NCBI RefSeq assembly: GCF_000768685.1
Contig: NZ_AVPK01000006.1
Location: 62,001 to 126,000, forward strand
DNA length: 64,000 bases
Direction: 5' to 3'
Origin: Knoellia subterranea KCTC 19937
Lineage (GTDB): Bacteria; Actinomycetota; Actinomycetes; Actinomycetales; Dermatophilaceae
The position numbers and the translations under genes are program-made. Below are positions 2-64,000 of the stretch, in pieces. The number at the start of each line of letters is the position of its first letter. Within the stretch, counting starts at the first letter, position 1. The notes beneath the pieces are model-generated. The model was not told where the DNA came from. It made no database searches and saw only the letters and a program-made list of their open reading frames with translations.

Positions 2-97
2 GATCTGCTCCCGCCCGAGTCGCGGGAGCGGCATACGCCGACCGCCGAGGAACTGCGGTCCACGTATCCGGGTGGACGGGTCCCCGACGAGGCCTGA
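2..97 (+). CDS. C-terminal fragment of unknown protein (cut by window edge)
   Basis: An open frame runs from the window edge to a TGA at 95-97 and encodes 31 residues that end in PDEA. The fragment is rich in charged residues and proline and shows no recognisable domain. It is followed by DnaA-box-like sites and the helicase gene on the same strand. That it is the end of a real gene is inferred from the open frame and the intergenic character of what follows; the product cannot be named. Confidence 0.4.
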   Translation, partial: DLLPPESRERHTPTAEELRSTYPGGRVPDEA

Positions 98-101
98 GGG
101 A

Positions 102-139
102 TTTTCCACAGCGGCTCGGGCGTTGCGGACTTGTCCACA
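102..139 (+). promoter_or_regulatory. Two DnaA-box-like sites
   Basis: TTTTCCACA (102-110) and TTGTCCACA (131-139) lie on the same strand, 29 bp apart, between the upstream gene end and the helicase start. The second matches the actinobacterial DnaA box TTGTCCACA exactly; the first differs at one position. No dnaA, dnaN or parAB lies nearby, so this is not oriC. A regulatory or DnaA-titrating role is possible but unproven. Confidence 0.45.
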
Positions 140-211
140 GATCTCGAATGGCCCGTGCGCCGTGTCGGCGGGACGGCATACGTTGGGCGTCGTTGAGGCG
201 CGACGAGGGAG

Positions 212-3200
212 GTGAGCCGACACGTGGAGCAGGCCCACATCCTGGAGGAACTGACCGACGTCGAGCTGGCGCGCGCCTTCGGTCCGCTGACGCTGGCTCG
301 CGGGGTGGAGTACGCGCGGGCCGGGCGGGTCACGAGCATCGTCCTCGCCGACCGCGGCGCGCGAGCGGCAGCCCGGGTCCTCGGTAGTGGCGCCAACATC
401 TATCGCACCGACATCGCGCTCGACCCGGACAGCCCGGGGAGCCACCTCGACACCGACTGCACCTGCCCCGTCGGGGTCGCGTGCAAGCACGCCGCAGCCC
501 TGACGATCGCCCTGCGGACCCAGAAGCCGTGGCGCACCGAACAGGAGTCCGGCGGGTCCGAAGGGTCGGCCGCAACGACGGAGTCGTGGCGTGATGCCCT
601 TGACGAGTTGCTCGACGTCGAGGAGCCCGACCTCGAGACCTCTCCGGTGGGGCTGCTGCTCGACGTGGAGACGCCGCGGACCCAGCGCTGGAATGCCGAG
701 GCGGGGCCGTCGGTGCAGCTGCGACCGATGGTCCCCGGTGCCGTCCCAGGACGGTGGATCAAGACGGGCATCTCGTGGGAGGCGATGGCCGGCGGCTACT
801 ACTCGTCATACTCCTACAACGTCGACGGAGCCGCCCTCGACGCCCTGACCGCCATCGCGGACGCCCACCGGCGTGCGAGTCGGATGGCGAGCTATGGGCG
901 CATGCCGGCGTCGATCCCCCTGTCGCTCGTGGGCCGTGGGTGGGTGGGCCTGCTCGCCAAGGCGCGGGCCGCCGGCGTCGTGCTCCTGTCCCAGTCCTCC
1001 GGCGGGGGCGAGGTCCACCTCGTCGAGGCGCCCGGCCACTTCACCCTGCACCTCCACCCGTCCAACCCCAATGCTGCCGCGGCTGGGCGTCCGACCGACG
1101 TCCGGGCCGTGCCCAGTCTCGAGCTGCCCGAGGGGGACGGCGATGTCGTCATCGTCGGCGACCCACCGACCGGCTGGTTCCGGGTCGAGGGGCGCGACCT
1201 GCGGCTCGGCGGCTTCGGTCCCGATGTCGATCTGGCTGCTGCGCGCGTCGTTGCGCGAGGGCCCTTCACCATCCCGAGCGCCGACTGGTCGAATTTCGCC
1301 GTCGACAAGCTCCCGGTGCTGCGGCGCCGAGCCGCGGTGCAGACCCACGACGGTCTCACCCTGCCCGAAGTCGTGCCGCCGCGACTGCACCTGGGCGTGC
1401 GGTTCGACAAGAAGCACACGGCCCGCGTGGCGTGGTCCTTCCGCTACGGGCCGGTCGACGCGCCGATCACGGTGCCGCTGGCCCGTGAGCGAGTGGTCTT
1501 CCGTGACCCCAACGCCTTCCGCGACGCCGCCGTCGAGAGCGAGCTGCTCGAGGCGATCCCGAGCCACGCCGACCTGCCCGCACTGTGGGACCTCACCCGC
1601 TCCGGATGGGCACCGCACGAGGCGGTGACCCTCACCGGCTTCGACACCGTGGCCTTCGCCGAACTGCTGCCCGAGATCTCGGCACACGCCCAGGTGGAGG
1701 TCGACGTCGTCGGTGAGCCCGCGGCATACGCGGAAGTCACCGAGGCGCCCCGCATCGCGATCGGGACGAGCGAGTCCACCGAGGGCAACGACTGGTTCGA
1801 CCTCCAGATCTCCGTGACCGTCGGCGGGCACGAGGTGCCGCTGTCCGATCTCGTGACTGCGCTCGCGCGCGACGAGCAGCGGATGCTGCTCCCCGACGGT
1901 GCGTGGTTCACGCTCGACCATCCCGAGCTGCACCGACTCCGGTCGCTCGTCGAAGAGGCGCGGGCGTTGCAGGACAAGCAGTCCGACCCACTGCGGTTGT
2001 CCGTCCTCCATGCCGGGCTCTGGGACGAGCTCGTCGAGATCGGCGTGGTCGAGGAGCAGTCGAGCCACTGGCAGCGAGCCGTCGATGCGCTGCTGGGCAT
2101 CGACGCCGACCACAACCCGCCACCGGCCGAGGTGCCGAGCACGCTCAAGGCGACGCTGCGCCCCTACCAGGAGGACGGCTTCCGCTGGCTTTCCCTGCTC
2201 TGGGACCTCGGCCTGGGCGGCGTCCTCGCCGACGACATGGGACTCGGCAAGACCCTCCAGGTCGTCGCGACCGCCCTGCGCGCCAAGGAGCGCGGCGAGC
2301 TCGCCGACCCCATGCTCATCATCGCGCCGACCTCCGTTCTCGGGACGTGGGTTGACGAGGTCGCGAAGTTCGCGCCCGACCTGTCCGTGGCCGTCCTCGA
2401 CCGAACCCGGGCCAAGGCCCGCGTCCCGATGGAGGACGCCATCGTCGGTGCCGACCTGGTGGTGACCACCTATGCAGTGGCGCGGATCGACGCGGAGGCA
2501 TTCCGTTCCGTCCCGTGGTCCGCGGCGGTCCTCGACGAGGCGCAGTTCGTCAAGAACCACCAGGCGAAGACGTATGCCGCGGTGCGGCGACTGCCGGCCC
2601 GCGTCACCTTCGCGCTCACCGGAACGCCGCTCGAGAACTCGCTCATGGACCTGTGGTCGCTCTTGTCGATCGTCGCCCCGGGACTCCACCCACGCCCTCA
2701 GCTGTTCAAGGAGCAGTGGGCCAAGCCGATCGAGAACGGCTCGTCGCCCGAGCTCCTCGCGACCCTGCGCCGACGCATCCGGCCACTCATGCTCCGGCGC
2801 ACCAAGGAGTCCGTCGCCGCGGACCTGCCACCCAAGCAGGAGCAGATCCTCCACGTCGCCCTCAACCCGAAGCACCGCGCCATCTATGACCGGCACCTCG
2901 CTCGCGAGCGGCAGCGACTCCTCGGACTCATCGATGACCTCGACGGCAACCGCATCGCGATCCTGCGTGCGCTCACCGTCCTGCGCCAGATGGCCCTCGA
3001 CCCCTCGCTGGTCGACGCCGAGGCCTATGGCGGCGTGGCCCCCAGCGCCAAGGTGGAAGCCCTCGTCGAGCAGGTGGCCGAGTTGGCGGCCGAAGGGCAC
3101 CGGGCCCTCGTCTTCAGCCAGTTCACCGGCTTCCTGTCGCTCGTGCGCGCGCGGCTCGAGGAGGAGGGCATCGAGTACGCCTATCTCGACGGATCGACGC

Positions 3201-3705: not shown

Positions 3706-3746
3706 GTCTGAAAGTCACTTCTCGACAGTCCTGAATCGCAGGTTCC

Positions 3747-5761: not shown

Positions 5762-7074
5762 GCTCGTCACCGCAGTCCCAGGAATCCGGTGCCACCCGTC
5801 GCAGTCTTCTCGCCTCGGGTGCCGGCGTCGCCATCGCCGGCGCTGCCGCGGGCCTGACGTATGCCGGCCGCCCCGGTTCCGTTGCGGCGCACCAGTCCTC
5901 GTCCGGTCGGGGTTCCTCGGGGTCCGCCTCGGCGGAGCCCGTGCCGTTCCGCGGCGAGCACCAGGCGGGGATCGTCACGCCGGCCCAGGACCGGATGCAC
6001 TTCGTCGCACTCGACGTCGTGACGAAGGACCCGGCCGAGCTCCGACTCCTCCTCAAGGAGTGGACCCGAGCGGCCGAGCGGATGACGTACGGCGCCGAGG
6101 CCGCTCCCGGTGGCGTCGTCGGTGGTGGGCCCTACCAGCCGCCGGCCGACACGGGCGAAGCACTCGACCTGCCCCCGTCGAACCTCACCATCACGATCGG
6201 CTACGGGCCGTCGCTGTTCGACGGCCGCTTTGGGCTGGCCGGGCGCAAGCCGGAGGCCCTGCACGACCTTCCGGGCTTCGTCGGCGACGACCTCGATCCG
6301 GCACGTTCCGGCGGAGACCTCTGCATCCAGGCCTGCGCCGACGACCCGCAGGTCGCTGTGCACGCCATCCGCAACCTCATCCGGATCGGCTTGGGCGTCA
6401 TCTCGGTGCGGTGGAGCCAGCTCGGCTTCGGCCGCACCTCGTCGACGTCGACGAGCCAGACGACACCCCGCAACCTCTTCGGCTTCAAGGACGGCACGGC
6501 CAACATCAAGGCCGAGGACTCCGACGCCCTGACCAAGCACGTGTGGGTCGATCCCGCCGACGTCCCCGGCAATGCCGCGTGGATGGCGGGGGGTTCCTAC
6601 CTCGTCACCCGGCGCATCCGCATGCACATCGAGGTCTGGGACCGGACACCGCTCCAGGAGCAGGAGGACATCTTCGGGCGCGACAAGGCAGTCGGGGCCT
6701 CGTTGCACCTGCCGGTCGACAAGCGCGACGAGTTCGCACCCCTCGACTTCGAGGCCAAGGGTGCCGACAACCAGCCGCGCATCCCGATGGCTGCGCACGT
6801 CCGGCTCGCCCACCAGAGCCAGCTGGGCGGCATACGGATCCTGCGTCGTGGCTACAACTTCACCGACGGCAGCGACGGAAGTGGGCACCTCGACGCCGGG
6901 CTGTTCTTCGTCGCGTTCGTCCGGGACGCCCACAAGCAGTTCGTGCCGATGCAGCAGGCGCTGGCCAGGGCAGACGTCCTCAACGAATACATCGAGCACA
7001 CCGGATCGGCCCTCTTCGCCGCCCCGCCCGGTCTGGGCACTGACGACGACTGGGGTACCCAACTCTTCGGCTAG
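5758..7074 (+). CDS. efeB: EfeB Dyp-type haem peroxidase / deferrochelatase
   Basis: Dye-decolorising haem peroxidase, 438 residues, probably exported by the Tat pathway with bound haem: a twin-arginine pair at residues 14-15 (TRRSLLASG) precedes a hydrophobic stretch. The Dyp GxxDG motif is seen as FGFKDGTAN near residue 242, and a candidate proximal haem histidine lies in the VRLAHQSQ region of the C-terminal half. The GTG start overlaps the efeO stop. In the family it oxidises Fe(II) or extracts iron from haem for EfeO/EfeU. Peroxidase family membership is clear; the physiological substrate is inferred. Confidence 0.95.
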   Translation: MSSSPQSQESGATRRSLLASGAGVAIAGAAAGLTYAGRPGSVAAHQSSSGRGSSGSASAEPVPFRGEHQAGIVTPAQDRMHFVALDVVTKDPAELRLLLKEWTRAAERMTYGAEAAPGGVVGGGPYQPPADTGEALDLPPSNLTITIGYGPSLFDGRFGLAGRKPEALHDLPGFVGDDLDPARSGGDLCIQACADDPQVAVHAIRNLIRIGLGVISVRWSQLGFGRTSSTSTSQTTPRNLFGFKDGTANIKAEDSDALTKHVWVDPADVPGNAAWMAGGSYLVTRRIRMHIEVWDRTPLQEQEDIFGRDKAVGASLHLPVDKRDEFAPLDFEAKGADNQPRIPMAAHVRLAHQSQLGGIRILRRGYNFTDGSDGSGHLDAGLFFVAFVRDAHKQFVPMQQALARADVLNEYIEHTGSALFAAPPGLGTDDDWGTQLFG

Positions 7075-7101: not shown

Positions 7102-8178
7102 ATGACCGAGGAGCTCCCTCCCACTGACGCCAGTACGACGGACGTCGACCCGGGCGCTGCTTCGCCGACGGCTGTCGAGGCGCTGCTGACTCGCGGCGTG
7201 AAGCGGGTCGCGGGCGTCGCCGACCGCGTCGTCCACCACCGAGTCGTCAACGATGCGCGTGCCGTCATCAACGCCGCCGCCGGTGACACTCTCGCGACGG
7301 CCGGTTCGGCCCTCTCGCACACCATGGGCGTCCGGGTGCTGGGGCATTCGATCCCCCTGACGAGGGAGGGGCTCGCCAACGCCTTCCCCCAGGCCTCCGA
7401 GGAGGTCGTCGTCCTCATCCACGGCCTGATGGTGACCGAATCCTGTTGGGAACAGGGCCAATTCGGACCGCAGCTCGAGGGCGACCTCGGCTTCACGAGT
7501 GTTGCGGTGCGCTACAACACGGGCCTGCGGATCTCGCACAACGGTCGTGAACTCGATCGGGTCCTCACCGCCCTCGTTGCCCACTGGCCCGTCCCCGTGA
7601 CCCGGCTCGCCCTCGTCGGCCACTCGATGGGCGGTCTCGTCCTGCACAGCGCCCTGGCTCAGGCGGCGGACGACGCACCGTGGGTCGGGCTCGTCAGCGA
7701 CACCATCACCCTCGGGTCACCGCACCTCGGTGCACCCCTCGAACGTGCCCTCGCCGGGACCACCCGACTCACCGGCGCCGTGCGGCACGGGGCCGGGCTC
7801 GGTCGCGCGTTGGGCCGACGCAGCGTCGGGATCCAGGACCTCGCTCGCGGCCGGATCCTCGACGAGGAGTGGAACGATCCAGTGGCGACCGGCCGCCGAT
7901 GGCGACGGGTCGACGTTCCGCTGCGGGCCGGCATACGCCATCTGGCAATCGTCGGACTGCTGGGCAAGAAGATCAACGGACCCATCGCGCAACTCATCGG
8001 CGACGGAATCGTCCCGGCATCGAGCGCCCGAGGTTCGGGACGGAAGGCGCCGCGCAGCCGCCGGTTCGCGGGGGAGGACGTCGTCGTCCTTCCCGGGGTC
8101 GGTCACCTCGCGCTCGTCCACGACCCTTCGGTGTATGCCGCGATTCGCGAGCGACTCGGTGCCAGAGTGGACCCATGA
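7102..8178 (+). CDS. Alpha/beta hydrolase, lipase/PGAP1-like
   Basis: Alpha/beta-hydrolase of about 358 residues. It has the oxyanion-hole motif LIHGLM and the nucleophile elbow GHSMGG (Ser near residue 175), followed by a helix resembling triacylglycerol lipases and PGAP1-type esterases. The first 70 or so residues look like a helical extension. ATG 7102 is preferred because a TACTCT -10 box precedes it by 7 nt; an in-frame TTG at 7084 is possible. It overlaps zwf by 4 bp (ATGA), so the two are cotranscribed although no metabolic link is obvious. The substrate is unknown; an esterase or lipase acting on membrane lipids is plausible. Confidence 0.85.
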   Translation: MTEELPPTDASTTDVDPGAASPTAVEALLTRGVKRVAGVADRVVHHRVVNDARAVINAAAGDTLATAGSALSHTMGVRVLGHSIPLTREGLANAFPQASEEVVVLIHGLMVTESCWEQGQFGPQLEGDLGFTSVAVRYNTGLRISHNGRELDRVLTALVAHWPVPVTRLALVGHSMGGLVLHSALAQAADDAPWVGLVSDTITLGSPHLGAPLERALAGTTRLTGAVRHGAGLGRALGRRSVGIQDLARGRILDEEWNDPVATGRRWRRVDVPLRAGIRHLAIVGLLGKKINGPIAQLIGDGIVPASSARGSGRKAPRSRRFAGEDVVVLPGVGHLALVHDPSVYAAIRERLGARVDP

Positions 8179-9656: not shown

Positions 9657-9741
9657 TCGTGACGGCACCGCGTCCGGCGGTGCGCGGCGGTGTGCGGCGG
9701 ACCAGTCCATGTGGGTCTGGTCCGGGACCGGACGGCATACC

Positions 9742-12723: not shown

Positions 12724-13254
12724 ATGAGCGAGATCGTGCCGGACGACAAGGACTGGACCTGGACTCTCGAGCGTCCCTGCCCGGACTGTGGTTTCGACCC
12801 CACGACGGTCGACGGGCCCGACATCGCGAGTCTCGTCACGGCATACACGACGCCGTGGACGGACGTCCTCGCGCGACCGGACGTGGCCGCTCGACCCAAC
12901 CCGAGCACGTGGTCGCCCCTCGAGTACGCGTGCCACGTCCGTGACGTCTGCGACCTCTTCGCCGACCGTGTGCAGCTGATGCTCGACGAGGACGGTGCCC
13001 GCTTCGCGAACTGGGACCAGGACGTCACGGCGGTCGAGAGTGCCTATGCCGCGCAGCCGCCCGTCGTCGTAGCGTCCGAGATTCCCGTGGCCGCCGCGCG
13101 ACTCAGTGCCGCGTATGCCGGCGTGTCCGGTTCGCAGTGGGAGCGTCGCGGCGTGCGGTCCAACGGTTCGGAGTTCACGGTCCTGACGTTGGGGCGCTAC
13201 GGCCTGCACGACCTCCGCCACCACGTGTGGGACGTCGGCGCGTCGGTGGACTGA
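12724..13254 (+). CDS. DinB/MDMPI-fold protein
   Basis: Protein of 176 residues with the four-helix DinB superfamily look. The metal-site histidines are probably in YACHVRD (middle) and LHDLRHHVWDVG (C-terminus). The N-terminus carries a CPDCGFDP segment typical of an actinobacterial DinB subfamily. In this superfamily members use a metal to activate a thiol such as mycothiol, or have lost catalysis; the substrate here is unknown. ATG 12724 is chosen over GTG 12718 because TACCCT lies 6 nt upstream. It is divergent from the lipid kinase. Confidence 0.75.
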   Translation: MSEIVPDDKDWTWTLERPCPDCGFDPTTVDGPDIASLVTAYTTPWTDVLARPDVAARPNPSTWSPLEYACHVRDVCDLFADRVQLMLDEDGARFANWDQDVTAVESAYAAQPPVVVASEIPVAAARLSAAYAGVSGSQWERRGVRSNGSEFTVLTLGRYGLHDLRHHVWDVGASVD

Positions 13255-13864: not shown

Positions 13865-14518
13865 CTCGCCATGGCCGGCGAGCTCGTGGGCCATGGCGCG
13901 GACCACCCCGCCGAGCAGAGCCGTCGACAGACCGGCGAGGCACAGGTACACGACCAGGAACGTCGTGTCGACGTCGCGGAAGAACACCGTCAGCGCCCAC
14001 ACGAAGCTCGCTCCCCACGCCGTGGCCCACGCAGACATCACCCAGGGTCGGGGGGCGAGAGGCGAGTTGGCGCCGCGGCGGTCGGACTGCTGCCACTTCG
14101 CACTCGCCCACAGGTCGCCGAACATTCGATGCGGCACGAGGATGTGCGCGACGGGGATGAACCACGCCACGAGGAACCACTCGCGGTTGAACTGCTCGGT
14201 CGTGGGGTCCACCCGACGCGTTCCCGCGGCGACGAAGCACCACGCGCCGGCGCCGAGGACGAGACCGGTCTGGAGGATGCCCACCACCTGAGCCGCGAAG
14301 CCGAAGAGTCCACCTGACGCCGAGCCGATCTGGGCCAGCCCGGCCAGCCCGGCGAACACGGCCGCGAGCCCGGCACTCACGGCATACAGGGTGGTCGTCG
14401 CGCGACCGAACCACAGCGGGAGGTCCGGTCGCGGACGACGGGTGTGGGAGCGGTGCGCGCCGCGCCGGTCGTCGGCGTGGCTGGTCAGGCGGACGGAAGT
14501 GGGGATCGAGGTTGTCAT
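13859..14518 (-). CDS. DUF4328-like membrane protein
   Basis: Membrane protein of 219 residues with five or six hydrophobic segments after a basic N-terminus (SHTRRPRPD). The central part, with [20 protein letters not shown] and [10 protein letters not shown], resembles the DUF4328 pattern of a tryptophan/proline-rich transmembrane pair. No enzymatic motif is seen and the function is unknown. Start ATG 14518 is chosen because upstream in-frame sequence looks intergenic. It reads towards the toxin-antitoxin pair, with its stop inside the putative operator, and is divergent from serS. Confidence 0.7.
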
Positions 14519-15929: not shown

Positions 15930-15936
15930 GAGGGGT

Positions 15937-26963: not shown

Positions 26964-26970
26964 GGTGCGT

Positions 26971-28480: not shown

Positions 28481-28507
28481 GCCGGCCACCCGGCATACGG
28501 CCACACA

Positions 28508-33976: not shown

Positions 33977-34092
33977 CCCATACCTCTCCGGTATGCCGTT
34001 CGGTCGGCTCCGCGGATCGCTTCCCCACCTCCGGAGGGTTGCGTTCAGCGGGGCCGACCGTGGTCGTTGGAGGCCGACGCGGCCGTGGTGGT

Positions 34093-38648: not shown

Positions 38649-38664
38649 CGCGTATGCCGTCCGC

Positions 38665-41933: not shown

Positions 41934-41958
41934 GTCCGGTCCCAGGCCCCAGACACAC

Positions 41959-41992
41959 GTATGCCGCCCGCTCGGGTGAGCGGACGGCATAC
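41959..41992. terminator. Hairpin made of two dispersed-word copies
   Basis: GTATGCCGCCCGCTC (41959-41973) pairs with GAGCGGACGGCATAC (41978-41992) with one mismatch across a 4-nt loop. Both arms are copies of the dispersed word in opposite orientation. It sits between the ends of convergent genes (41823 and 42025), as expected for a terminator; no T-run follows. Confidence 0.65.
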
Positions 41993-42024
41993 CGGATCGT
42001 TCTTCGCGGCGTCGCCGCCCCCGG

Positions 42025-51897: not shown

Positions 51898-53358
51898 ATG
51901 GCTGTGAAGCACTTCAACCTCCCCGACCCCGGTGAGGGTCTGCTCGAGGCCGAGATCGTCGAGTGGAAGGTCGCCGTCGGCGACACCGTCAAGGTCAACG
52001 ACATCGTCGTCGAGATCGAGACCGCCAAGTCGCTCGTCGAGCTGCCCATCCCGTGGGCCGGCACCGTGACGGCACTGCTCGTCAACGTCGGCGACGAGGT
52101 CGCGGTCGGCACTCCGATCATCGGCATCGACGACGGCCAGGGTGGCGAATCCGCTTCTCCTGCAGCGGAATCCGCTGCCACGGTGACGTCGGCTTCGACG
52201 TCGGACTCGGCTCCCGCTGAGGTCGAGGAGGAGCCGGTCAAGACGCTCGTCGGCTATGGCCCCAAGGCGGGCGGCAGTTCGCGGCGTCCGCGCAAGGCGG
52301 CGGCCTCGCCTGCCGCGGCTCCTGCACCTGCGCCCGTCGCAGCGCCGGAGCCCGAGCCGGTCGCGACTCCTGTCCCCGCGACGACGGGTGGCGGCAAGGC
52401 GCTCGCCAAGCCCCCGGTGCGCAAGCTCGCCAAGGACCTCGGCATCGACCTCGGTTCCGTTGCCGGGTCCGGTCCCGGTGGCATCGTCACCCGTTCCGAC
52501 GTCGAGGGGTATGCCGCAGGCTCGCCCGCCGCTGCCTCCTCACCGGCCGGTGTGGCCGGGTCCTCGAACGCGGCCACCGCGGCCCCGGCGGCCGGGAGCG
52601 GCGCGGGCTCGACGGCATACGCCAACGGTTTGGGTGGAGGCGAGCGCGAGGTGCGCGTCCCCATCAAGGGCGTCCGCAAGATGACGGCGCAGGCGATGGT
52701 CGGCAGTGCCTTCACGGCGCCGCACGTCACCGAGTGGGTCACCGTCGACGTGACCGCCACGATGGACCTCGTCGCGAAGCTCAAGAAGGACCGCGAGTTC
52801 AAGGACGTCAAGGTCACTCCGCTCCTCATCCTCGCCAAGGCGATGGTGATCGCGGCGCGCCGCAACCCCGAGATCAACGCGGCGTGGGACGAGGCGGCGC
52901 AGGAGATCGTCCTCAAGAACTACGTCAACCTCGGTATCGCCGCGGCCACCCCGCGCGGGCTCGTCGTCCCGAACATCAAGGACGCCGACCGGCTCGACCT
53001 GCGCGGTCTCGCCGAAGCGATCGGTGCGCTGACCGCGACGGCCCGCGAGGGTCGCACCCAGCCGGCCGAGATGTCCGGCGGAACGATCACCATCACGAAC
53101 ATCGGTGTCTTCGGCATCGATGCGGGCACGCCGATCCTCAACCCCGGCGAGTCGGCGATCCTCGCGTTCGGCACGATCACCCGTCGTCCGTGGGTCGTCA
53201 CCGACGCGTCCGGCGCCGAGACGATCGTTCCGCGCTCGGTGACGACCCTGGCCCTCAGCTTCGACCACCGGTTGGTCGACGGTGAGCTCGGGTCGCGCTA
53301 CCTGGCCGACGTCGCCGCGGTTCTCGAGGACCCGGCGCGCGCCCTCGTCTGGGGCTGA
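51898..53358 (+). CDS. pdhC: 2-oxoacid dehydrogenase E2 (lipoyl acyltransferase)
   Basis: E2 subunit of 486 residues. One lipoyl domain (lipoyl Lys44 in ETAKSLVEL), an Ala/Pro/Ser-rich linker, an E3-binding domain (VRKLAKDLGIDLGSVAGSGP), a second Ala-rich linker and the acyltransferase with DHRLVDGELG near the C-terminus. GAGGAG precedes the ATG. No E3 (lpd) gene follows, so the complex must use a lipoamide dehydrogenase encoded elsewhere. The E2 is shorter than Pdh/Sdh-type actinobacterial E2 with multiple lipoyl domains. Confidence 0.94.
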   Translation: MAVKHFNLPDPGEGLLEAEIVEWKVAVGDTVKVNDIVVEIETAKSLVELPIPWAGTVTALLVNVGDEVAVGTPIIGIDDGQGGESASPAAESAATVTSASTSDSAPAEVEEEPVKTLVGYGPKAGGSSRRPRKAAASPAAAPAPAPVAAPEPEPVATPVPATTGGGKALAKPPVRKLAKDLGIDLGSVAGSGPGGIVTRSDVEGYAAGSPAAASSPAGVAGSSNAATAAPAAGSGAGSTAYANGLGGGEREVRVPIKGVRKMTAQAMVGSAFTAPHVTEWVTVDVTATMDLVAKLKKDREFKDVKVTPLLILAKAMVIAARRNPEINAAWDEAAQEIVLKNYVNLGIAAATPRGLVVPNIKDADRLDLRGLAEAIGALTATAREGRTQPAEMSGGTITITNIGVFGIDAGTPILNPGESAILAFGTITRRPWVVTDASGAETIVPRSVTTLALSFDHRLVDGELGSRYLADVAAVLEDPARALVWG

Positions 53359-53507: not shown

Positions 53508-54743
53508 GTGCTCTCGACGTATCGCCCACTGTTCGACATCCCGGGCGCATGGCGCTTCCTCGCGGCGGGCGCGCTCTCCCGAGTGGGCGGAGCGATGTTC
53601 GGCGTCGCGATCATCATCATGATCGCGACCCGCCGCGACTCCTACGGGTTGGCGGGAGCGGTGAGCGCCGGGGGCATCGTCGTCCTCGCCGTCGCAGGCC
53701 CGCTCATCGGCCGCCTCGTCGACAAGTACGGCCAGCGCCGCGCCTCGCTCCCGTTCATTCTCGGCACCTTCGGTGCGGGGCTCGTGACCGTGGTGCTGTC
53801 CTTTGTCGGCGCACCCGCGTGGACCCTTTTCGTCGGGTATGCCGTGTCGGCCTTCCTTCCCGAGATGGGGCCGATGTCCCGGGCACGATGGGCCTGGCTC
53901 CTGCGCGACGAGCCCGACGCCCTGCATGCGGCGATGTCGCTCGAGCAGGTCGTCGAGGAGGGCACGTTCGTCCTCGGGCCCGTGATCGCGGTGACGGCGG
54001 CGACGATGCTCTTCCCCGAGGCAGGGCTGCTGCTCGCCTACATCACGTTCACCGCCGGGGCCGTGGCCTTCCTCCTGCAGGCCCGCTCCGAACCGCCGGT
54101 CGTCCCACACGACGACCGGCCCGCGGGACTGGCCATCACCCGCCCGGGCGTCGCGGCCGTGGCGGCGGCCGGGTTCATGGTCGGTGCCGTCTTCGGCGGC
54201 AACGAGGTCGTGTCGGTCGCGGTCGCCGACGAGGCCGGGCGGACCCAGATGAGTTCGATCATTCTCGGGGCGTTCGCGCTCGGGTCCGGGCTCTCGGCGC
54301 TCTACTTCGGCACGAGGAAGTTCACCGGATCGCTGGCCCGCCGCTTCGTGTGGTGCGCACTCGCGATGTGCGTCCTCGAACTGCCGGTCCTCTTCATCCA
54401 TGACCTGTGGGGGATCGCGGCCATGATGTTCATCGCCGGGTCAGCGACCGCGCCCACCCTCATCACGGCCCTCACACTGGTCCAGCAGCTCGTCCCCAGG
54501 GCCCTCATCACCGAGGGCATGGCCGTGGTGATCACCGGCCTCCTCGTCGGGCTCGCGAGCGCAACGGCACTGTCCGGCATACTCGTCGACTCGTGGGGCG
54601 CGCACGCGACGTACGCCCTCCCGGTGGGGGCCGCATTCCTCGCCGCGCTCATCGCGGCGGCGTCGGGCCGGCAGGTCGGGCGCGCGGCCCGCGCACCGGA
54701 GCGGCTCCCGAGCCGGGTCAGTCCTCCCGAGCCTTCTCAATGA
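53508..54743 (+). CDS. MFS transporter
   Basis: Major facilitator of 411 residues with about twelve helices. GRLVDKYGQRRASLP is the loop 2-3 signature. The family resembles bacterial EmrD/SetA-type efflux pumps; the substrate is unknown. GTG 53508 begins MLSTYRPLFDIPGAWRF. It follows a long hairpin and ends in another, so it is a separate transcription unit, convergent with the MarR gene. Confidence 0.88.
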   Translation: MLSTYRPLFDIPGAWRFLAAGALSRVGGAMFGVAIIIMIATRRDSYGLAGAVSAGGIVVLAVAGPLIGRLVDKYGQRRASLPFILGTFGAGLVTVVLSFVGAPAWTLFVGYAVSAFLPEMGPMSRARWAWLLRDEPDALHAAMSLEQVVEEGTFVLGPVIAVTAATMLFPEAGLLLAYITFTAGAVAFLLQARSEPPVVPHDDRPAGLAITRPGVAAVAAAGFMVGAVFGGNEVVSVAVADEAGRTQMSSIILGAFALGSGLSALYFGTRKFTGSLARRFVWCALAMCVLELPVLFIHDLWGIAAMMFIAGSATAPTLITALTLVQQLVPRALITEGMAVVITGLLVGLASATALSGILVDSWGAHATYALPVGAAFLAALIAAASGRQVGRAARAPERLPSRVSPPEPSQ

Positions 54744-54803: not shown

Positions 54804-55277
54804 TCAGGCCGGGTCGCGCGGTGTGAGGAGCGGATGGGCCTCGAGGTCGTCGGCGAAGCGGTGCAGCAGGCGCTGGAACGTCGCGAGATCCGCATCGGCC
54901 CAGTCGGCGGTCACCTCGCCGAGCCAGGTGTTGCGCCGCGCCCGGATGGCGACGAGCAGTTCGCGCCCGGCCTCGGTGAGCGCAAGGACGTGCGCCCGTC
55001 CATCGGTCGGGTCGGGGAGCCGCTCGACGAACCCCTTGGCGACGAGCTGGCTGACGTGGCGGCTGACCGTCGACACGTCGAGGTGGACGGCGGCGGCGAT
55101 GTCGGAGACCCGGCGCGGTTCGTCGCGCAGGTTGAACATCAGCGGGTAGCCGATCGGGTCGACCTCCGGATGCGCCCGAGGCGCCCGCTGCCGGACCGTC
55201 CCCAGCAGCTTCATCGCGCGGATGAGGTCGTCCCCGAACGCGAGGCGAGGGTCCTCCGGGTCCATGCGATGCGGCAT
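54804..55277 (-). CDS. MarR-family transcriptional regulator
   Basis: Regulator of 157 residues with a winged helix: RVSDIAAAVHLDVSTVSRHVSQLVAKGFVERL and wing DPTDGRAHVLALTEAG. Start ATG 55277 lies inside a copy of the dispersed word (complement GTATGCCGC) and follows CAGGAT by 7 nt. Target unknown; it is convergent with the MFS gene and close to an MDMPI-like gene on the same strand. Confidence 0.9.
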   Translation of the reverse strand: MPHRMDPEDPRLAFGDDLIRAMKLLGTVRQRAPRAHPEVDPIGYPLMFNLRDEPRRVSDIAAAVHLDVSTVSRHVSQLVAKGFVERLPDPTDGRAHVLALTEAGRELLVAIRARRNTWLGEVTADWADADLATFQRLLHRFADDLEAHPLLTPRDPA

Positions 55278-55303
55278 ACGAGAAATCCTGTCGTCCGCCC
55301 CGA

Positions 55304-56152
55304 TCAGGGGGCAATCACCAGTGCGTCGAGCACCCGGCGGGCGATGGCCTCGTCGCCGACGACCGCGTAGTGCGTGTCCTCCGTCGCGACCCGCCCGGCC
55401 GCACGCCGCGTCGCGGCTTCCGTCGACAGCGTGATCGTCGTGGTCTCGACGTCGCCGTGGTCGTCGGTGCCGCCGGAGAAGAGGGGTATGCCGTGTGCCT
55501 TGCCTTCGCGTTCCTCGACCCGCACCCCGGTGCGGCCGACGATCGGTCCGGTGAGGTCGAGGATGACGCCCTGCCCGGCCGGAACAGCGGCAGTGCGCGC
55601 AACGATCCGGGGGAAGGCGGCGAAGAGGGTGCGGACGGTGTGGGCGGCGCCGGCGCTGTCGAGATTGCCGGGACGGCCGAGGGCGCCGCGGATGTCCTGC
55701 TCGTGGACCCACAGGTCGAAGACGCGGCTCTGCATCGATCCGACGAGGTTCGTCGGGCCGAACGGGCCGGGTGCGGGGTCGTCCGGCGAGGTCGTCGGGT
55801 CCTCGAGGTGTGCGATGCGTGCCGTGGAGAGGTCGGTCAGCTCCTCGAGCAGTTCCTCCACGGAACGTCCTCGACGGGACTCGAGGTACTTCTCGACGAC
55901 GGCCGCGAACGGATTGCGCACGTGTTCGTGATGGCTGACGTCGAGGTCCGGAAGCGGCTCACCCTGGACCCACGCCTCGAGACTGACGACGTGGGCGAAC
56001 TGGTCGTGGACGGTCCAGCCGGGGCAGTCGGTGTCGCGCTCGGCATCACCCGGGCGCAGGGAACCGCCGAGGTCGAGGAGTGCCCGCACGGTGTGTGCGT
56101 AGGCCTCCGTGAGGCCGGCGAGGTTCGTGGGGGCGTCTGCGACGAGGGGCAT
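55304..56152 (-). CDS. Maleylpyruvate-isomerase-family, mycothiol-dependent-type protein
   Basis: Protein of 282 residues with the MDMPI_N four-helix domain: TDCPGWTVHDQFAHVV near residue 43 and FDLWVHEQDIRGALG near 165 carry the metal ligands of the fold. A C-terminal SCP2-like region follows. It may use mycothiol as cofactor; substrate not predictable. It starts with an ATG preceded 6 nt by TAGGCT (minus strand) and is divergent from CopD-CtaG. Confidence 0.85.
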   Translation of the reverse strand: MPLVADAPTNLAGLTEAYAHTVRALLDLGGSLRPGDAERDTDCPGWTVHDQFAHVVSLEAWVQGEPLPDLDVSHHEHVRNPFAAVVEKYLESRRGRSVEELLEELTDLSTARIAHLEDPTTSPDDPAPGPFGPTNLVGSMQSRVFDLWVHEQDIRGALGRPGNLDSAGAAHTVRTLFAAFPRIVARTAAVPAGQGVILDLTGPIVGRTGVRVEEREGKAHGIPLFSGGTDDHGDVETTTITLSTEAATRRAAGRVATEDTHYAVVGDEAIARRVLDALVIAP

Positions 56153-56190: not shown

Positions 56191-58176
56191 ATGAGTTCCA
56201 CCCCTGTTGGCGCGCCGACCGACCGCACCCCGTTGGGTCCGGTGGCCATCGTGTCCGTCGTCGGACTGGTCGTCGCGCTCGTGGCGGCGTCCCTCGCCGG
56301 TGTCCTGGCACCACTCGTCCTCGACGATCCGGGGCCCGCAGTCCGCTGGTCTCTCCCGCTCGTGCGCGTTGTCAGTGACCTCTCCTCGGCGGTGACGCTC
56401 GGGTTGCTGGGGTTGGCGGCGTTCCTCGTTCCGGAGCGGCGCACCACGGAGCGACGGATCCAGGCGTCACGGCTCGCGGCGGTCACGGGAGTCGTGTGGT
56501 TCGTCAGCGCGGGGCTCGGCGTCTTCCTCACTTTTGCCTCGCTGGCCGGACTGCGCCTGGGTGACCCGGAGTTGGGGCGTCAGTTCCTGACCTTCGTGTG
56601 GTCCCTCGAGGTGACGCGCGTGCTGTCGATCTCGACCGGTGTGGCTCTTGTTGTCGCGACGGGCGCGCTCATCGCCCGGACGCGGACCGGCTTCGCGTGG
56701 CTGGCAGCGCTGGCGCTCGGCGGCATCGTCGTCGTCGCGCTCACCGGCCACTCCGCCGGTAGCGCCAGTCACGAGTCGGCCGTCAACTCGCTCGGCGTGC
56801 ACCTCCTCGGCGTCACCGTGTGGGTCGGCGGATTGCTCGCCATCGCGCTCATGCGCCCCCGCATCGGGCGCGACCTCGGCGCGACCGTGTCCCGCTATTC
56901 GGTGCTCGCCGGATGGGCGTATGCCGCGGTCGCCCTCACCGGTCTCCAGCAGGCCGTCATCCGGCTGGGTTCGTTCTCGGGGATCAACTCGGCCTACGGC
57001 GCGATGCTCGTCGCCAAGACCGCGATCCTCGTGGCGCTCGGCCTCATCGGCTGGCAGCAGCGACGCCGCGTCATCGCCTCGATCGAGACCTCGGACAGCG
57101 GCTTCGCCCGCCTCGTCCTTGTCGAACTGGGTCTCATGGCCGCGGCCTTCGGTCTCGGTGCCGTCCTCGGCCGCACGCCTCCGCCCGTCCCGGAGGAGGA
57201 GTTGGACCCGAGCACCGTGCTGTCGCTGACCGGCTTCCCCGACCCCGGACCGATGGCCGCGGCGGACTGGTTCACGGCCTGGCGGCCGAACTGGCTCATG
57301 GTCACCATCGCGGTCGTCGCGGTGGGCCTGTATGCCGCGGGAGTCGTCCGTCTCGACCGTCGCGGCGACGCGTGGCCGGTCCACCGCACGATCCTGTGGA
57401 CCCTGGGTTGGGTCGGCTTCGTCTGGGCGACGAGCGGAGCGCCCGACATCTGGGGGCGGGTGCTCTTCTCGGTGCACATGGTCATGCACATGGTCGTGGC
57501 GATGATCGTGCCGCTGCTCCTCGTCCCGGCGGCACCATTGACGCTCGCGCTGCGGGCGCTCACCGCGCGCAAGGACCGCACGTGGGGTCCGCGCGAGCTC
57601 ATCCTCCAGGTCGTCCACTCGCGGGCGATGCAGGTGCTGGCCAACCCGGTCGTTGCCGCGGTGCTCTTCTTCGGCAGCCTCGCCGCCTTCTATTGGTCGC
57701 CGTTGTTCGAGCTCGCCCTGACGACGCACAGCGGGCACCTCCTGATGCTGGCGCACTTCCTCCTCACCGGATACCTGTTCACGTGGGTGCTCATCGGCAT
57801 CGACCCCGGTCCGCCGAAGTGGTCTCCCGCGATGCTGCTGCTCATCCTCTTCGCGACGATTTCGTTCCACGCGTTCTTCGGGGTCGCCCTGACCGGGACG
57901 AAGTTCGTCCTCGCACCCGGTTTCTTCGAGCAGATCAATCTGCCGTGGGGTCCGCAGCTCTTGGCGGACCAGGAGAAGGCCGGTGAGATCGCCTGGGGCT
58001 TCGGAGAGGCCCCGACGATGATCCTCGCCATCCTCGTGGCGCGACAATGGTTCCGTCGCGACCGTCAGGAGACGGTGCGACTCGACCGGCAGGCCGACCG
58101 CGACGAAGACGCGGCACTGCGCGCCTACAACGCGCGGCTCCAGCGACTCGGCGACGAGGCCAAGGAGGTGGACTGA
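56191..58176 (+). CDS. CopD-like/CtaG (caa3 assembly) fusion membrane protein
   Basis: Membrane protein of 661 residues with two halves. The N-terminal half (about 1-320) resembles copper-resistance CopD: helices with WVGGLLAIALMRPR and SALTGHSAGSASHESA-like His sites. The C-terminal half (about 360-620) is CtaG-like (caa3 oxidase assembly): HMVMHMVVAMIVPLLL, THSGHLLMLAHFLLTG and SFHAFFGVAL. Met- and His-rich helices fit copper transfer to a haem-copper oxidase. The stop overlaps the nitrilase start. It is probably the copper chaperone/importer for cytochrome aa3-type oxidase. Confidence 0.92.
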   Translation: MSSTPVGAPTDRTPLGPVAIVSVVGLVVALVAASLAGVLAPLVLDDPGPAVRWSLPLVRVVSDLSSAVTLGLLGLAAFLVPERRTTERRIQASRLAAVTGVVWFVSAGLGVFLTFASLAGLRLGDPELGRQFLTFVWSLEVTRVLSISTGVALVVATGALIARTRTGFAWLAALALGGIVVVALTGHSAGSASHESAVNSLGVHLLGVTVWVGGLLAIALMRPRIGRDLGATVSRYSVLAGWAYAAVALTGLQQAVIRLGSFSGINSAYGAMLVAKTAILVALGLIGWQQRRRVIASIETSDSGFARLVLVELGLMAAAFGLGAVLGRTPPPVPEEELDPSTVLSLTGFPDPGPMAAADWFTAWRPNWLMVTIAVVAVGLYAAGVVRLDRRGDAWPVHRTILWTLGWVGFVWATSGAPDIWGRVLFSVHMVMHMVVAMIVPLLLVPAAPLTLALRALTARKDRTWGPRELILQVVHSRAMQVLANPVVAAVLFFGSLAAFYWSPLFELALTTHSGHLLMLAHFLLTGYLFTWVLIGIDPGPPKWSPAMLLLILFATISFHAFFGVALTGTKFVLAPGFFEQINLPWGPQLLADQEKAGEIAWGFGEAPTMILAILVARQWFRRDRQETVRLDRQADRDEDAALRAYNARLQRLGDEAKEVD

Positions 58177-58985
58177 TGCGCATCGCCCTGGTCCAGCTCG
58201 GCTACGACGACGCCGAGACGATGCCGGAGCGCGTCGAGCGGGTTGCCACCCTCGTCCGCGCCACCGTCGACGAGCACGAGCCCGACCTCGTCGTCCTCCC
58301 CGAACTCTGGGGCCCGACGGGGTTCGACTACCGGCGCTGGGACGACCTGGCCGAACCGATCGACGGCCCCTGGGTCACGGCCATGACGGCGCTCGCCGCC
58401 GAGACCGGAGTGACCCTCCATGCCGGCTCGTTCATCGAGCGCCTCGCCGAGACCGGGCCCGATGCGCGCACCCTGGCCAACACGTCCGTCCTCGTGACCG
58501 CGGAAGGTGGGCGGACGGCATACCGGAAGATTCACCGGTTCGGATTCGGCTCCGGTGAGCCCAAGCTCCTCGAGGCTGGCGCCGAAGTCGTCACGGCCGA
58601 AATCCCCTCTGGCACAGACGAATCCGTGACCGTGGGCCTGTCCACGTGCTACGACCTCCGCTTCCCCGAGCTCTATCGCCAGCAGGTCGACGCAGGTGCG
58701 GAGATCTTCGTCGTGCCGGCAGCGTGGCCCGCTGCCCGGGTGGCCCACTGGACCCTGTTGGGGCGGGCGCGGGCGGTCGAGGACCAGGTGTTCGTCGTGC
58801 AGTGCAACACCGCGGGGACGCATGCCCGCACCGATATGGGCGGGCACAGCCAGGTCATCGCGCCGACGGGCGAGGTGCTCGCCGAGGCCGGCGCGGACGA
58901 GGAGGTGCTCGTGGTCGACCTCGACCCGGGCCTCGTCGAGCGCACGCGAGCGAGCTTCCCCGTCCTCAGCGACCGCCGTCTCTGA
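58176..58985 (+). CDS. Nitrilase-superfamily carbon-nitrogen hydrolase
   Basis: Amidase-like enzyme of 269 residues with the complete triad: Glu in VLPELWG, Lys in YRKIHRFGFG and Cys in STCYDLRFPEL. It is closest in look to omega-amidase/Nit2-type enzymes, which hydrolyse alpha-ketoglutaramate or damaged metabolites. The ATG shares its first base with the preceding stop (TGATG), so translation is coupled to the CtaG gene. Confidence 0.9.
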   Translation: MRIALVQLGYDDAETMPERVERVATLVRATVDEHEPDLVVLPELWGPTGFDYRRWDDLAEPIDGPWVTAMTALAAETGVTLHAGSFIERLAETGPDARTLANTSVLVTAEGGRTAYRKIHRFGFGSGEPKLLEAGAEVVTAEIPSGTDESVTVGLSTCYDLRFPELYRQQVDAGAEIFVVPAAWPAARVAHWTLLGRARAVEDQVFVVQCNTAGTHARTDMGGHSQVIAPTGEVLAEAGADEEVLVVDLDPGLVERTRASFPVLSDRRL

Positions 58986-60563: not shown

Positions 60564-60597
60564 GGGCACCATCCTGCCGGTCGGCTCCGACAGCCCG

Positions 60598-61284
60598 CTA
60601 ACGCATTCTCGGGTCGGCGGTCGGGTTGGCGTACATGTCCGGGCATCCCTGGCTCGTTGCCTGCGGCCGGAGTTCGTAGTGCCACGGTTCGTTGCGATAG
60701 ATCTGACAGAGCCCGTATGCCGGCCCGTGCTCGGCGAGCCATTGGGTCGCCTTGGTGGGCCCGACGTCGACGGCGTCGCCGGAGACGTGCTCGGACTTCT
60801 CGGGTGGCGCGACCCAGCGGGCGGCCTCCTCCTCGGAGCCGTACTTCGCCACGGCCTCGCGGAGCAGCTTCGCCTGGTACTCCGGGCTGCGCCAGCCGCT
60901 GTTGATGACGATGCGCACACCGTCGGCCTCCGCGTCCTCGGCGGCGGCGCGCAGGGCGGCGAGGAGATCCGGGTCGAGGTTCGTCACGGAGGGATCGTCA
61001 CCGAGGACGCCCGAGGCCGTGGACGAATTCCCCTGTGACGAGCCGGGTTTCGCCGGTGGCGCCTGGAGGCGCGTTGCCCGCTTGACGGGGTTGGCCACGG
61101 TCGGCGGCCTGCTGTCGACCGTGATGGGAGGCGAGGTGTGGGTCTGGGCGGCAGCCCCGTCGTTACCGTGCAGCGGCCACCAGATCGTGAGGGCCACGAG
61201 GGTGGCGGACGCGAGGACGGCCGACGTGAGCAGGGTGAGGAGTGGGTAGCGGAGCCGCGGCGGCGGCGTCGGTGACTGGATCAT
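60598..61284 (-). CDS. VanY-like D-Ala-D-Ala carboxypeptidase (M15)
   Basis: Peptidase of 228 residues with an N-terminal membrane anchor (LLTLLTSAVLASATLVAL) and a Pro-rich spacer. The M15B/C zinc domain has SGWRSPEYQ, SEHVSGDAVDVG and EPWHYE, all metal/catalytic residues intact. It trims peptidoglycan stem peptides outside the membrane. It is divergent from a VanR/VanS-like pair. The palindrome at 61273-61296 covers its start codon. Confidence 0.88.
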   Translation of the reverse strand: MIQSPTPPPRLRYPLLTLLTSAVLASATLVALTIWWPLHGNDGAAAQTHTSPPITVDSRPPTVANPVKRATRLQAPPAKPGSSQGNSSTASGVLGDDPSVTNLDPDLLAALRAAAEDAEADGVRIVINSGWRSPEYQAKLLREAVAKYGSEEEAARWVAPPEKSEHVSGDAVDVGPTKATQWLAEHGPAYGLCQIYRNEPWHYELRPQATSQGCPDMYANPTADPRMR

Positions 61285-61296: not shown

Positions 61297-61375
61297 AGGG
61301 AGGAGCCCGTTGCGAGCCCGTATGCCGTTTTGCATACGTCCGCGATACCTCCCGGCTCGTAGCATCGACAGTGAC

Positions 61376-63176: not shown

Positions 63177-63833
63177 AGCCGCGATCTCGTCAAAACCCTT
63201 GATGCGGGCGTGTTCCAGAGCCGTCACGTCGTCCTTGTCGGCGATGGACCGGTCCGCTCCCGCGTCGAGCAGGATCCGCACGATCTCCTGGTGACGCTCG
63301 CCGCCGTCGCCGAGGATGACGGCTTCGAGCAGAGCGGTCCACCCGAGGTCGTTGACGTGGTTGACGTCGATGTCGGTCCGGACGACGCGGCGCACGTAGT
63401 CGACGTGTCCCCGCTCGCTCGCCGGAATGATCGACACCCCGCCGTAGCGGTTCTTGATGGTCAGATCCGGCTTCGCGGGGAGCAGCACCTCGACCATGGC
63501 GACGCTGCCGGTGACCCCGGTGACGAGCCACGGGGTGTCGTGCCGGCCGTCGAGAGCGTCCGGCGAAGCGCCCTGCGTCAGGAGCAGCTGGGCGACCTCG
63601 ACGTGATCGCCGGTCACGGCGAGCAGCAGTGGTGTGCGCTGCTGCTCGTCACGGGCTTCCACATCGGCACCTGCCTCGAGCGCCTGGGCCACCCCGCCGG
63701 TGTCACCGTCTCGTGCCGCGACGAGCAGCTCGGAATCGGCGTCGCCGGACCGTGCGGAACGCTCCGTTGAGGTGCACGCGGACGTCATCCATCCGAACGC
63801 GACGAGCAGCAGCACACTGAGGATTCGGGTCAC
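63162..63833 (-). CDS. Ankyrin-repeat lipoprotein
   Basis: Lipoprotein of 223 residues: signal with lipobox TSAC (Cys20) and about five ankyrin repeats. These include AARDGDTGGVAQALEAGADV, RTPLLLAVTGDHVEVAQLLL, and a C-terminal TALEHARIKGFDEIAALL. It probably mediates a protein-protein contact at the outer face of the membrane. GTG 63833 start; partner unknown. It is divergent from the FAD-linked oxidase gene at the window end. Confidence 0.88.
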   Translation of the reverse strand: MTRILSVLLLVAFGWMTSACTSTERSARSGDADSELLVAARDGDTGGVAQALEAGADVEARDEQQRTPLLLAVTGDHVEVAQLLLTQGASPDALDGRHDTPWLVTGVTGSVAMVEVLLPAKPDLTIKNRYGGVSIIPASERGHVDYVRRVVRTDIDVNHVNDLGWTALLEAVILGDGGERHQEIVRILLDAGADRSIADKDDVTALEHARIKGFDEIAALLDD

Positions 63834-63838
63834 GTTCC

Positions 63839-63844
63839 TAGGAT
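63839..63844 (+). promoter_or_regulatory. Leaderless -10 box TAGGAT
   Basis: TAGGAT is followed by 7 nt and the GTG at 63852. The same site is CCTAGG-palindromic and lies next to the divergent ankyrin start. Confidence 0.5.
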
Positions 63845-63851
63845 GGACGAT

Positions 63852-64000
63852 GTGACCGATCGCAGCGTTGCCGTCGCCGAACTCGTCTCGTCCCTCCCTG
63901 CGGGGGTGGTCGCGACAACACCCGAAGCGCTCGAGAAGTACCGGCAGGACTGGGCCAAGGACCCAGACGCCGGTATGCCGTGTGCGTGCGTTCGCGCCGA
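63852..64000 (+). CDS. FAD-linked oxidase, N-terminal part (cut by window edge)
   Basis: The frame from GTG 63852 is open to the window edge and encodes 49 residues. The stretch ALEKYRQDWAKDPDAGMP followed by CACVRA resembles the N-terminus of GlcD-like FAD-linked oxidases (glycolate or D-lactate type). The usual next element is the FAD-binding PP loop, which lies outside. A TAGGAT box lies 7 nt upstream. Family assignment from this short part is tentative. Confidence 0.65.
   Translation, partial: MTDRSVAVAELVSSLPAGVVATTPEALEKYRQDWAKDPDAGMPCACVRA

Follow-up and report, generated by a model that had tools for sequence, protein, structure and literature searches.

The DNA considered here is a stretch of 64,000 nucleotides (hereafter the window), corresponding to positions 62001-126000 of contig C31 in the draft genome of its host (G000; 3,566,056 bases in 33 contigs). 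Genes recognised in it include serS as well as cydD-like, cydA-like and hisC-like genes, and throughout the window, within genes and between them, a single octamer, GTATGCCG, is iterated in both orientations. This octamer, which is non-palindromic (its reverse complement is CGGCATAC), is almost certainly a real and maintained word that forms dialects among related bacteria, and it probably serves as a self tag in DNA uptake. Genes in the window and in a larger host sample of 464 kb (the window plus a further 400 kb) were called with a home-made caller based on codon usage rather than with a published gene finder.

Abundance and arrangement of the octamer

By exact recount, the window contains 57 copies of GTATGCCG, 30 on the plus and 27 on the minus strand, the first starting at 29 and the last ending at 63980. 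The same numbers had been given in the original prediction, made from the letters of the window, which had also put the GC content at about 72 percent and the expected number of copies at roughly two. The measured GC content is 69.9%, and the expectation is lower, namely 0.84 (order 1) to 1.5 (order 2) copies under Markov models and a mean of 0.88 (maximum 4) in 100 dinucleotide-preserving shuffles of the window. The host genome as a whole holds 2,444 copies, 1,233 forward and 1,211 reverse, versus 54 copies of the reversed word used as a control; a genome-wide count near expectation, which the prediction had named as the outcome that would speak against it, was not found. The one-mismatch neighbours, for which it had likewise proposed a count, are, taken together, no more frequent in the host than expected (326 vs 326-332), with two single variants being raised, CTATGCCG (28 vs 7-12) and GTAGGCCG (37 vs 20-21). 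In the 464 kb host sample, the base that follows the octamer is T in 160 cases, G in 90, C in 59 and A in 5 (n=314). Another octamer in this sample, CGTCCTCG/CGAGGACG, reaches 362 copies vs 126 under an order-2 Markov model; it lies outside the six top words given from the codon-aware list, and codon usage is probably the cause.

Along the host sample no strand skew was detected (chi-square 5.1, p 0.96; 12 bins, 11 of 40 kb and one of 20 kb, with 8-21 copies per strand per bin). Spacing, which had also been proposed as a check, is near exponential (mean 1,428 bases, coefficient of variation (CV) 0.97), except for an excess of gaps of 20-40 bases (13 vs 4.3 expected) that is due to inverted pairs. 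Sixteen pairs of opposite orientation within 60 bases occur in the host sample, of which 13 lie 5-64 bases past a stop codon; among the remaining three, one is inside a called gene, one is 112 bases away and one is between divergent genes. The predicted folds of the 16 pairs range from -19.6 to -55.6 kcal/mol, and for the pair in the window the fold of 41945-42010 (minus strand) has a predicted energy of -37.8 kcal/mol and a z of -3.97 vs 200 shuffles.

The word is present across most of the sampled host sequence. Per five-kb bin (92 bins), the mean number of copies is 0 below 62% GC (3 bins), 1.8 at 62-66% (5 bins), 3.5-3.8 at 66-72% (82 bins) and 3.0 above (2 bins), the outlying classes containing few bins. 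The low counts at low GC may reflect a depletion in recently acquired DNA, as is characteristic of DNA uptake sequences. Five word-free gaps exceed 5 kb; three of them are low in GC and two are at 70-71% GC. Two word-free stretches of 62-63% GC, C1:209842-224975 and C31:1-8972, resemble a surface-polysaccharide island and a mobile/defence island, respectively, their genes being judged by eye only.

Maintenance at the DNA level

Codon choice, reading frames and conservation at orthologous sites show that the word is maintained at the DNA level, independently of protein. The 464 kb host sample contains 314 copies, 220 of them in genes, where all six classes of frame and orientation exceed the expectation from codon products: Tyr-Ala (107 vs 5.7), Ala-Tyr (72 vs 2.3), Gly-Ile (20 vs 0.28), Met-Pro (13 vs 2.1), antisense frame 0 (7 vs 0.33) and Val-Cys-Arg (1 vs 0.03). 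The other 94 copies, 30% of the sites, are intergenic or at gene edges, within 12% of the sequence. Within the window, 43 of the 57 copies fall in genes, as Tyr-Ala (TAT-GCC, 17), Ala-Tyr (GCA-TAC, 11), Gly-Ile (GGC-ATA, 8), Met-Pro (5) and Arg-His-Thr (2), and 14 are intergenic or at gene edges (Table 1). The original prediction had the word occurring in all frames and orientations; this holds in the window for five of the six classes, and not for the sixth (Val-Cys-Arg), which is found only once in the 464 kb. The rare-codon sites that it named, Gly-Ile with ATA at 7929, 18851, 27552 and 32222 and Ala-Tyr with GCA at 12839, 25046 and 44380, were all correctly described.

When codons were shuffled synonymously and intergenic DNA was regenerated (10 rounds), a mean of 19.5 copies was obtained in the 464 kb, vs 314 observed. 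Tyr before GCC is encoded by TAT in 107 cases and by TAC in 13 in the G__G context, vs 45 and 102 elsewhere; Ala before TAC is encoded by GCA in 72 of 111 cases after CG, vs 5 of 176 elsewhere; and 20 of the 43 ATA codons of the sample lie within copies of GTATGCCG. Alignments of eight congeners to the window span 15-33 kb each at about 80-82% identity. In them the octamer is intact at 150 of the 179 aligned sites, many of which are the same window site in several congeners and hence not independent, vs 471 of 2,480 (19%) control octamers taken in phase at offsets of 12-30 bases from these sites. This conservation check had been suggested together with the claim that selection on protein cannot explain the word, and codon bending, the synonymous shuffle and orthologous conservation all agree with that claim. 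Codon-pair usage in a single frame, which had been put forward as a possible refuter, does not account for the counts, as all frame classes exceed expectation.

Table 1. Copies of GTATGCCG in the window and the hairpin formed by two of them. All rows are based on an exact-match scan and home-made gene calls, with the class taken from the reading frame; each row is a copy of GTATGCCG unless stated otherwise.
Class or feature	Position	Strand	Further basis
Intergenic	29..36	-	
Intergenic	174..181	-	
Ala-Tyr (GCA TAC), gene 224-3550+	1722..1729	-	
Tyr-Ala (TAT GCC), gene 224-3550+	2572..2579	+	
Tyr-Ala	5859..5866	+	
Gly-Ile (GGC ATA)	6828..6835	-	
Gly-Ile (GGC ATA)	7929..7936	-	
Tyr-Ala	8133..8140	+	
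Intergenic by gene call	9733..9740	-	
Ala-Tyr (GCA TAC)	12839..12846	-	
Tyr-Ala	13113..13120	+	
Intergenic, upstream of serS	14380..14387	-	
Intergenic by gene call, after serS	15935..15942	+	
Ala-Tyr	16970..16977	-	
Gly-Ile (GGC ATA)	18851..18858	-	
Tyr-Ala	19162..19169	+	
Met-Pro	21449..21456	+	
Met-Pro	22981..22988	+	
Ala-Tyr (GCA TAC)	25046..25053	-	
Tyr-Ala	25514..25521	+	
Tyr-Ala	26473..26480	+	
Met-Pro	26969..26976	+	
Gly-Ile (GGC ATA)	27552..27559	-	
Intergenic by gene call	28491..28498	-	
Intergenic by gene call	31098..31105	+	
Gly-Ile (GGC ATA)	32222..32229	-	
Intergenic	33991..33998	+	
Tyr-Ala	34143..34150	-	
Gly-Ile	34584..34591	+	
Arg-His-Thr	36449..36456	+	
Tyr-Ala	36771..36778	-	
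Tyr-Ala, in cydD-like gene	38270..38277	-	
Intergenic by gene call	38652..38659	+	
Tyr-Ala, in cydA-like gene call	39844..39851	-	
Left arm of inverted pair	41959..41966	+	
Right arm of inverted pair	41985..41992	-	
Terminator-like hairpin from inverted pair, 32 bp past stop codon of gene 42025-43707(-)	41959..41992	-	fold
Ala-Tyr	42964..42971	+	
Ala-Tyr (GCA TAC), in hisC-like gene	44380..44387	-	
Tyr-Ala, in hisC-like gene	44990..44997	+	
Arg-His-Thr	45465..45472	+	
Met-Pro	46073..46080	-	
Ala-Tyr	49089..49096	+	
Intergenic by gene call	49391..49398	-	
Tyr-Ala	50463..50470	+	
Ala-Tyr	50825..50832	-	
Tyr-Ala	52509..52516	+	
Ala-Tyr	52613..52620	-	
Tyr-Ala	53837..53844	+	
Gly-Ile	54575..54582	-	
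Intergenic by gene call	55272..55279	-	
Gly-Ile	55486..55493	+	
Tyr-Ala	56919..56926	+	
Tyr-Ala	57330..57337	+	
Ala-Tyr	58516..58523	-	
Ala-Tyr	60715..60722	+	
Intergenic by gene call	61320..61327	+	
Met-Pro	63973..63980	+	

Distribution and substitute words in the family

The best named match to serS of the window (81%) comes from Nostocoides sp. Soil756, followed by Phycicoccus, Terrabacter and Humibacillus, and from the titles of these relatives the family was inferred to be Dermatophilaceae in the wide GTDB sense, the former Intrasporangiaceae. Among the genomes scanned, GTATGCCG is restricted to this one family. All nine genomes scanned from the genus of the host carry 1,971-3,277 copies; in the family as a whole (186 genomes, 53 genera), 107 genomes have at least 390 copies and the other 79 at most 361. 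The 273 genomes outside the family, among 297 drawn from the same order, have at most 177 copies, mostly half to four times their own reversed-word control. The sole look beyond the order was provided by 68 other named serS loci, a few of which belong to the same order, and these hold 18 copies in 1.38 Mb, with at most 2 per locus. The serS neighbourhood of Terrabacter aerolatus contains 14 copies in 21 kb.

Sister lineages carry substitute words. One of these, GGATGCCG, is one base off GTATGCCG and reaches 2,099-4,480 copies in 7 of the 186 genomes, from three genera (g9, g15 and g51), the next-highest count being 1,336; GTATGCCG reaches 40-361 copies in five of the seven. The other two, G044 and G045, carry both words, with 1,217 and 1,189 copies of GTATGCCG, which possibly reflects an ongoing change of dialect or the reading of both words by one receptor. 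The sequence of CGAAGGGG, also noted as CGAAGGGG(G), is unrelated to GTATGCCG; 1,198-3,180 copies are found in 19 genomes, comprising all 16 of g27 and all 3 of g35, and the other 167 have at most 396. At least one of these three words strongly marks 131 of the 186 genomes. In samples, GGTATGCG(G) marks G033 and G036 (31 vs 1.7 expected in 80 kb of G033), CGTAGACC marks G016 (35 vs 6.8 expected in 99 kb), and a near-palindromic word centred on CGTACG is raised in G010, G022, G023 and G088 (GTACGCCG in G088, 88 vs 19 after codon shuffling). The CGTACG-centred words are given less weight, as their counts may be raised by Tyr-Ala and Tyr-Asp codon pairs, and they may represent a different, HIP-like phenomenon. 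Word hunts with Markov models were misled by high-GC codon pairs (TCGTCCTC, GTCGTCG), which top the lists in some genomes without a recognised tag, and the synonymous-codon shuffle was therefore applied to 15 samples. In g46, GGATGCCG is at about twice the family background (1,210 copies in G153 and 1,336 in G158) and is not prominent in the codon-aware list of G153.

Near serS, GGATGCCG occurs 21 times in Humibacillus sp. DSM 29435, 12 times in Nostocoides sp. Soil756 and 11 times in Phycicoccus sp. HDW14, vs an average of about 3.5 (maximum 9) in the 68 other named loci, and GGTATGCG occurs 9 times in 17 kb in an Intrasporangiaceae metagenome-assembled genome, vs at most 2 in other loci. Substitute words also form inverted pairs in samples: GGATGCCG has 4 in G042, 5 in G025 and 2 in G178, counted irrespective of gene placement, and CGAAGGGG (GAAGGGG) has 4 in 59 kb of G064 and none in 39 kb of G072. 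In the nine host-genus genomes, the octamer is most often followed by T, or by T and C equally often; elsewhere C follows it in 22 of 28 copies of G102 and in 19 of 33 of G164. In 39 kb of G049 the word occurs 11 times, always as GTATGCCGCT and in 10 cases preceded by C, amounting to a longer local dialect. On a tree of 43 TadA proteins (one gene, with an arbitrary root), word labels cluster, with 12 changes vs a shuffled mean of 21.3 and none of 200 shuffles as low. There, the distribution of CGAAGGGG is compatible with one origin (93/84 support), next to the GTATGCCG-bearing g40, and GGATGCCG accounts for two changes, G178 and G025 being nested among GTATGCCG genomes and G042 lying elsewhere.

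Interpretation and comparison with known systems

It is probable that GTATGCCG, with T, G or C and hardly ever A as its ninth base, is a genome-wide self tag of the kind known as DNA uptake sequences (DUS) or uptake signal sequences (USS), here in an actinobacterial family, since the pattern of its traits matches that of such sequences. A DNA receptor at the cell surface, belonging to the competence machine, would bind the word; this receptor would most likely be a minor pilin of a Tad/Flp pilus, or else a partner protein of ComEA. DNA of lysed kin that bears the tag would be taken up preferentially and would then recombine, and as transformation copied tagged alleles over untagged ones, the word would accumulate and be repaired everywhere, i.e., by molecular drive. 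A change of receptor would give rise to a new dialect and to a slow rewriting of the genome.

Transformation of the actinobacterium Micrococcus luteus depends on Flp/Tad pili and comEA/EC (PMC4322843, PMC8467076), and the term 'uptake sequence' is absent from the main text of both papers. In the host, ComEA adjoins ComEC according to Pfam matches, and Tad/Flp pilus loci are present, one of them with a DUF4244 Flp-like pilin and with TadE-like and TadG-like proteins, the latter two matching below the Pfam cut-off. At a third Tad locus, the tadA-like gene is split into L140:13529-14032 and L141:8065-8718 (C1, about 413.5-428.7 kb), separated by 14,032 bases of 64.8% GC with 1 word copy and, by eye, transposase-like and methylase/helicase-like genes. 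Across the family, ComEC is matched in 179 of 184 genomes, ComEA was found in 20 of 20 comEC loci (10 word-bearing, 10 low-count) and a Tad ATPase like that of the host in 45 of 45 genomes tested.

Several observations weigh against an uptake tag. ComEC, ComEA and the Tad ATPase are shared by genomes that carry the word and genomes that do not, so that their presence does not predict it; the look at competence genes that had been recommended with the original prediction found the machinery present but not tracking the word, and ComEC and TadA presence were rejected as correlates. ComEC is unmatched in 5 of the 184 genomes, four of which have at least 1,042 word copies and one 341; two of the five, G128 and G168, are of good quality (about 570 and 760 contigs). 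Among the ComEA proteins and Tad minor pilins compared, no receptor candidate tracks the word: by eye, among the matches listed, neither a presence/absence that follows the word nor a convincing covarying residue was seen, and Tad minor pilins are present in word-bearing genomes as well as in others. In G008 (2,805 copies) and G102 (3,272), neither Flp nor TadE nor TadF was recognised behind this tadA, the sole Flp trace there being a 15-residue match in G008. A second TadA is present in both, and if that tad locus is needed, these genomes have lost it recently or use another. Behind tadA of G008, TetR-like and SMR-transporter-like genes were noted by eye.

Further points on the same side concern the words themselves. 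Twelve family members sampled at 19-79 kb are without a clear word (G009, G018, G019, G027, G029, G030, G046, G082, G083, G153, G160 and G184; the codon-aware test covered G029, G083, G153 and G184), as is a sample of 3.8 kb from G113, and weak excesses occur, e.g., of GGATGCCG in G153 (16 vs 3.6 in 39 kb). Inverted pairs number 0 in small samples of G164, G016, G036, G044 and G072 and 1 in G102 and G033. Moreover, GTATGCCG, with no overall one-mismatch excess, is sharper than the neisserial kingDUS, to which one mismatch adds 21% (PMC3630211); strong drive would explain the missing mismatch tail, as would other mechanisms. Among the matches listed from the open-licence PMC literature, there were no transformation or uptake data on these organisms, no Gram-positive uptake tags and no such words in these genera, in line with the statement in the original prediction that none had been described for the group; the papers matched by the literal octamer, again among the matches listed, appear unrelated by title.

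Among alternative explanations, the word could be modified by a solitary DNA methyltransferase or in some other way, comparable to the highly iterated palindrome (HIP1) of cyanobacteria. It would then act in mismatch repair, replication or gene control, and its dialects would be changes in specificity. Density, strand balance, sharpness and frame independence would fit this equally well, and the near-palindromic CGTACG-centred words of G010, G022, G023 and G088 may be such sites. However, GTATGCCG, GGATGCCG, GGTATGCG and CGAAGGGG are non-palindromic, inverted pairs past stop codons are a trait of uptake sequences and 19 genomes carry an unrelated word; because of the non-palindromic word, these pairs and the lineage-specific substitutes, an uptake sequence is favoured over a HIP1-like site, which is considered unlikely. 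The same low probability is given to the idea that the words mark self DNA for a purpose other than transformation, e.g., for a defence or DNA-repair system counting family-specific octamers, in which tag reader and word would switch together between lineages, even from GTATGCCG to the unrelated CGAAGGGG. A chromosome-organising or nucleoid protein that requires a site about once per kilobase, irrespective of strand, would agree with the near-random spacing (mean 1.43 kb, CV 0.97) and with the word reaching most of the sampled sequence. Proteins of this type usually tolerate mismatches, yet no overall one-mismatch excess is seen, and differing words in sister lineages would be hard to reconcile with an essential protein; no such protein is known to have 2,400 strict octamers, and this explanation is rated as quite improbable.

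A recombination hotspot of the Chi type, read by a helicase-nuclease, could likewise be an octamer of high density enriched genome-wide. Chi acts in one orientation, yet the word has no strand polarity, and RecC, the one component of such enzymes searched for, is unmatched in the host and its congener G008. Matches to RecC do not follow the word across genomes, being found in 8 of 20 that bear it, 12 of 20 with low counts and 2 of 5 with intermediate ones, and this possibility is left with a very small chance. Even less is to be said for a guide word oriented with replication, such as the FtsK-orienting polar sequences (KOPS) or architecture-imparting sequences (AIMS), for which the high copy number would speak: forward and reverse copies are about equal genome-wide and in 12 of 12 bins, and the strand skew test refutes it within the sampled 464 kb, the bins not being placed relative to replichores. 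The view of the original prediction that the word resembles DUS or HIP1 rather than a polar KOPS is upheld by this balance. Equally negligible is a codon-pair or mutational artefact of high-GC coding sequence; some other octamers, e.g., CGTCCTCG, do exceed the Markov model in the host sample, probably through codon usage, yet the frame classes, the synonymous shuffle and orthologous conservation refute it, the intergenic excess also argues against it and no such excess exists in the 273 other genomes sampled from the order.

Returning to the uptake tag, known iterated words offer several parallels. Chi (GCTGGTGG, RecBCD) and KOPS are iterated octamers as well, HIP1 is a highly iterated octamer maintained at the DNA level, and the USS of Pasteurellaceae have a density similar to that of GTATGCCG. 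From Chi and KOPS the word differs in its lack of polarity and in the unmatched RecC of the host genome. HIP1 also varies between relatives; unlike GTATGCCG, its sequence GCGATCGC is palindromic and linked to methyltransferases, two orphan ones in cyanobacteria (PMC4390886). The USS is a self tag that is short and non-palindromic, as is the word, and that has dialects (PMC7811141, PMC12616744, PMC5031613), differing in its unrelated sequence, AAGTGCGGT (PMC5031613), and in the phylum of its hosts.

The DUS of Neisseriaceae are similar in having thousands of strict copies, within and between genes, terminator-tied inverted pairs and dialects clustered by phylogeny. The nine-letter word of the host, GTATGCCGT, shares ATGCCGT with the neisserial ATGCCGTCTGAA, through chance or convergence, and we know of no receptor common to the two. 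For Neisseria, ATGCCGTCTGAA has been reported as the consensus (PMC5031613), together with dialects that follow phylogeny, inverted pairs suggestive of terminators and a CTG core that is essential (PMC3630211). In contrast, GTATGCCG is without the CTG core, one lineage here has the unrelated word CGAAGGGG, and the hosts are Gram-positive actinobacteria, in which no ComP is known and none was searched for. Sequence-tagged DNA uptake was ascribed to two Gram-negative families, Pasteurellaceae and Neisseriaceae, in a 2016 review (PMC5031613), and ComP-dependent uptake in Neisseria was called an outlier in a 2025 paper (PMC12040237). The family studied here would represent a third, independent and Gram-positive case of sequence tags. 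If this holds true, self-specific bacterial sex evolves repeatedly and without the need for an outer membrane, and natural transformation has gone undetected across a large family. Many close pairs with different words, together with the two-word genomes G044 and G045, make dialect change and the tag reader directly testable, and Micrococcus luteus, a genetic model of Tad-dependent transformation, belongs to the same phylum.

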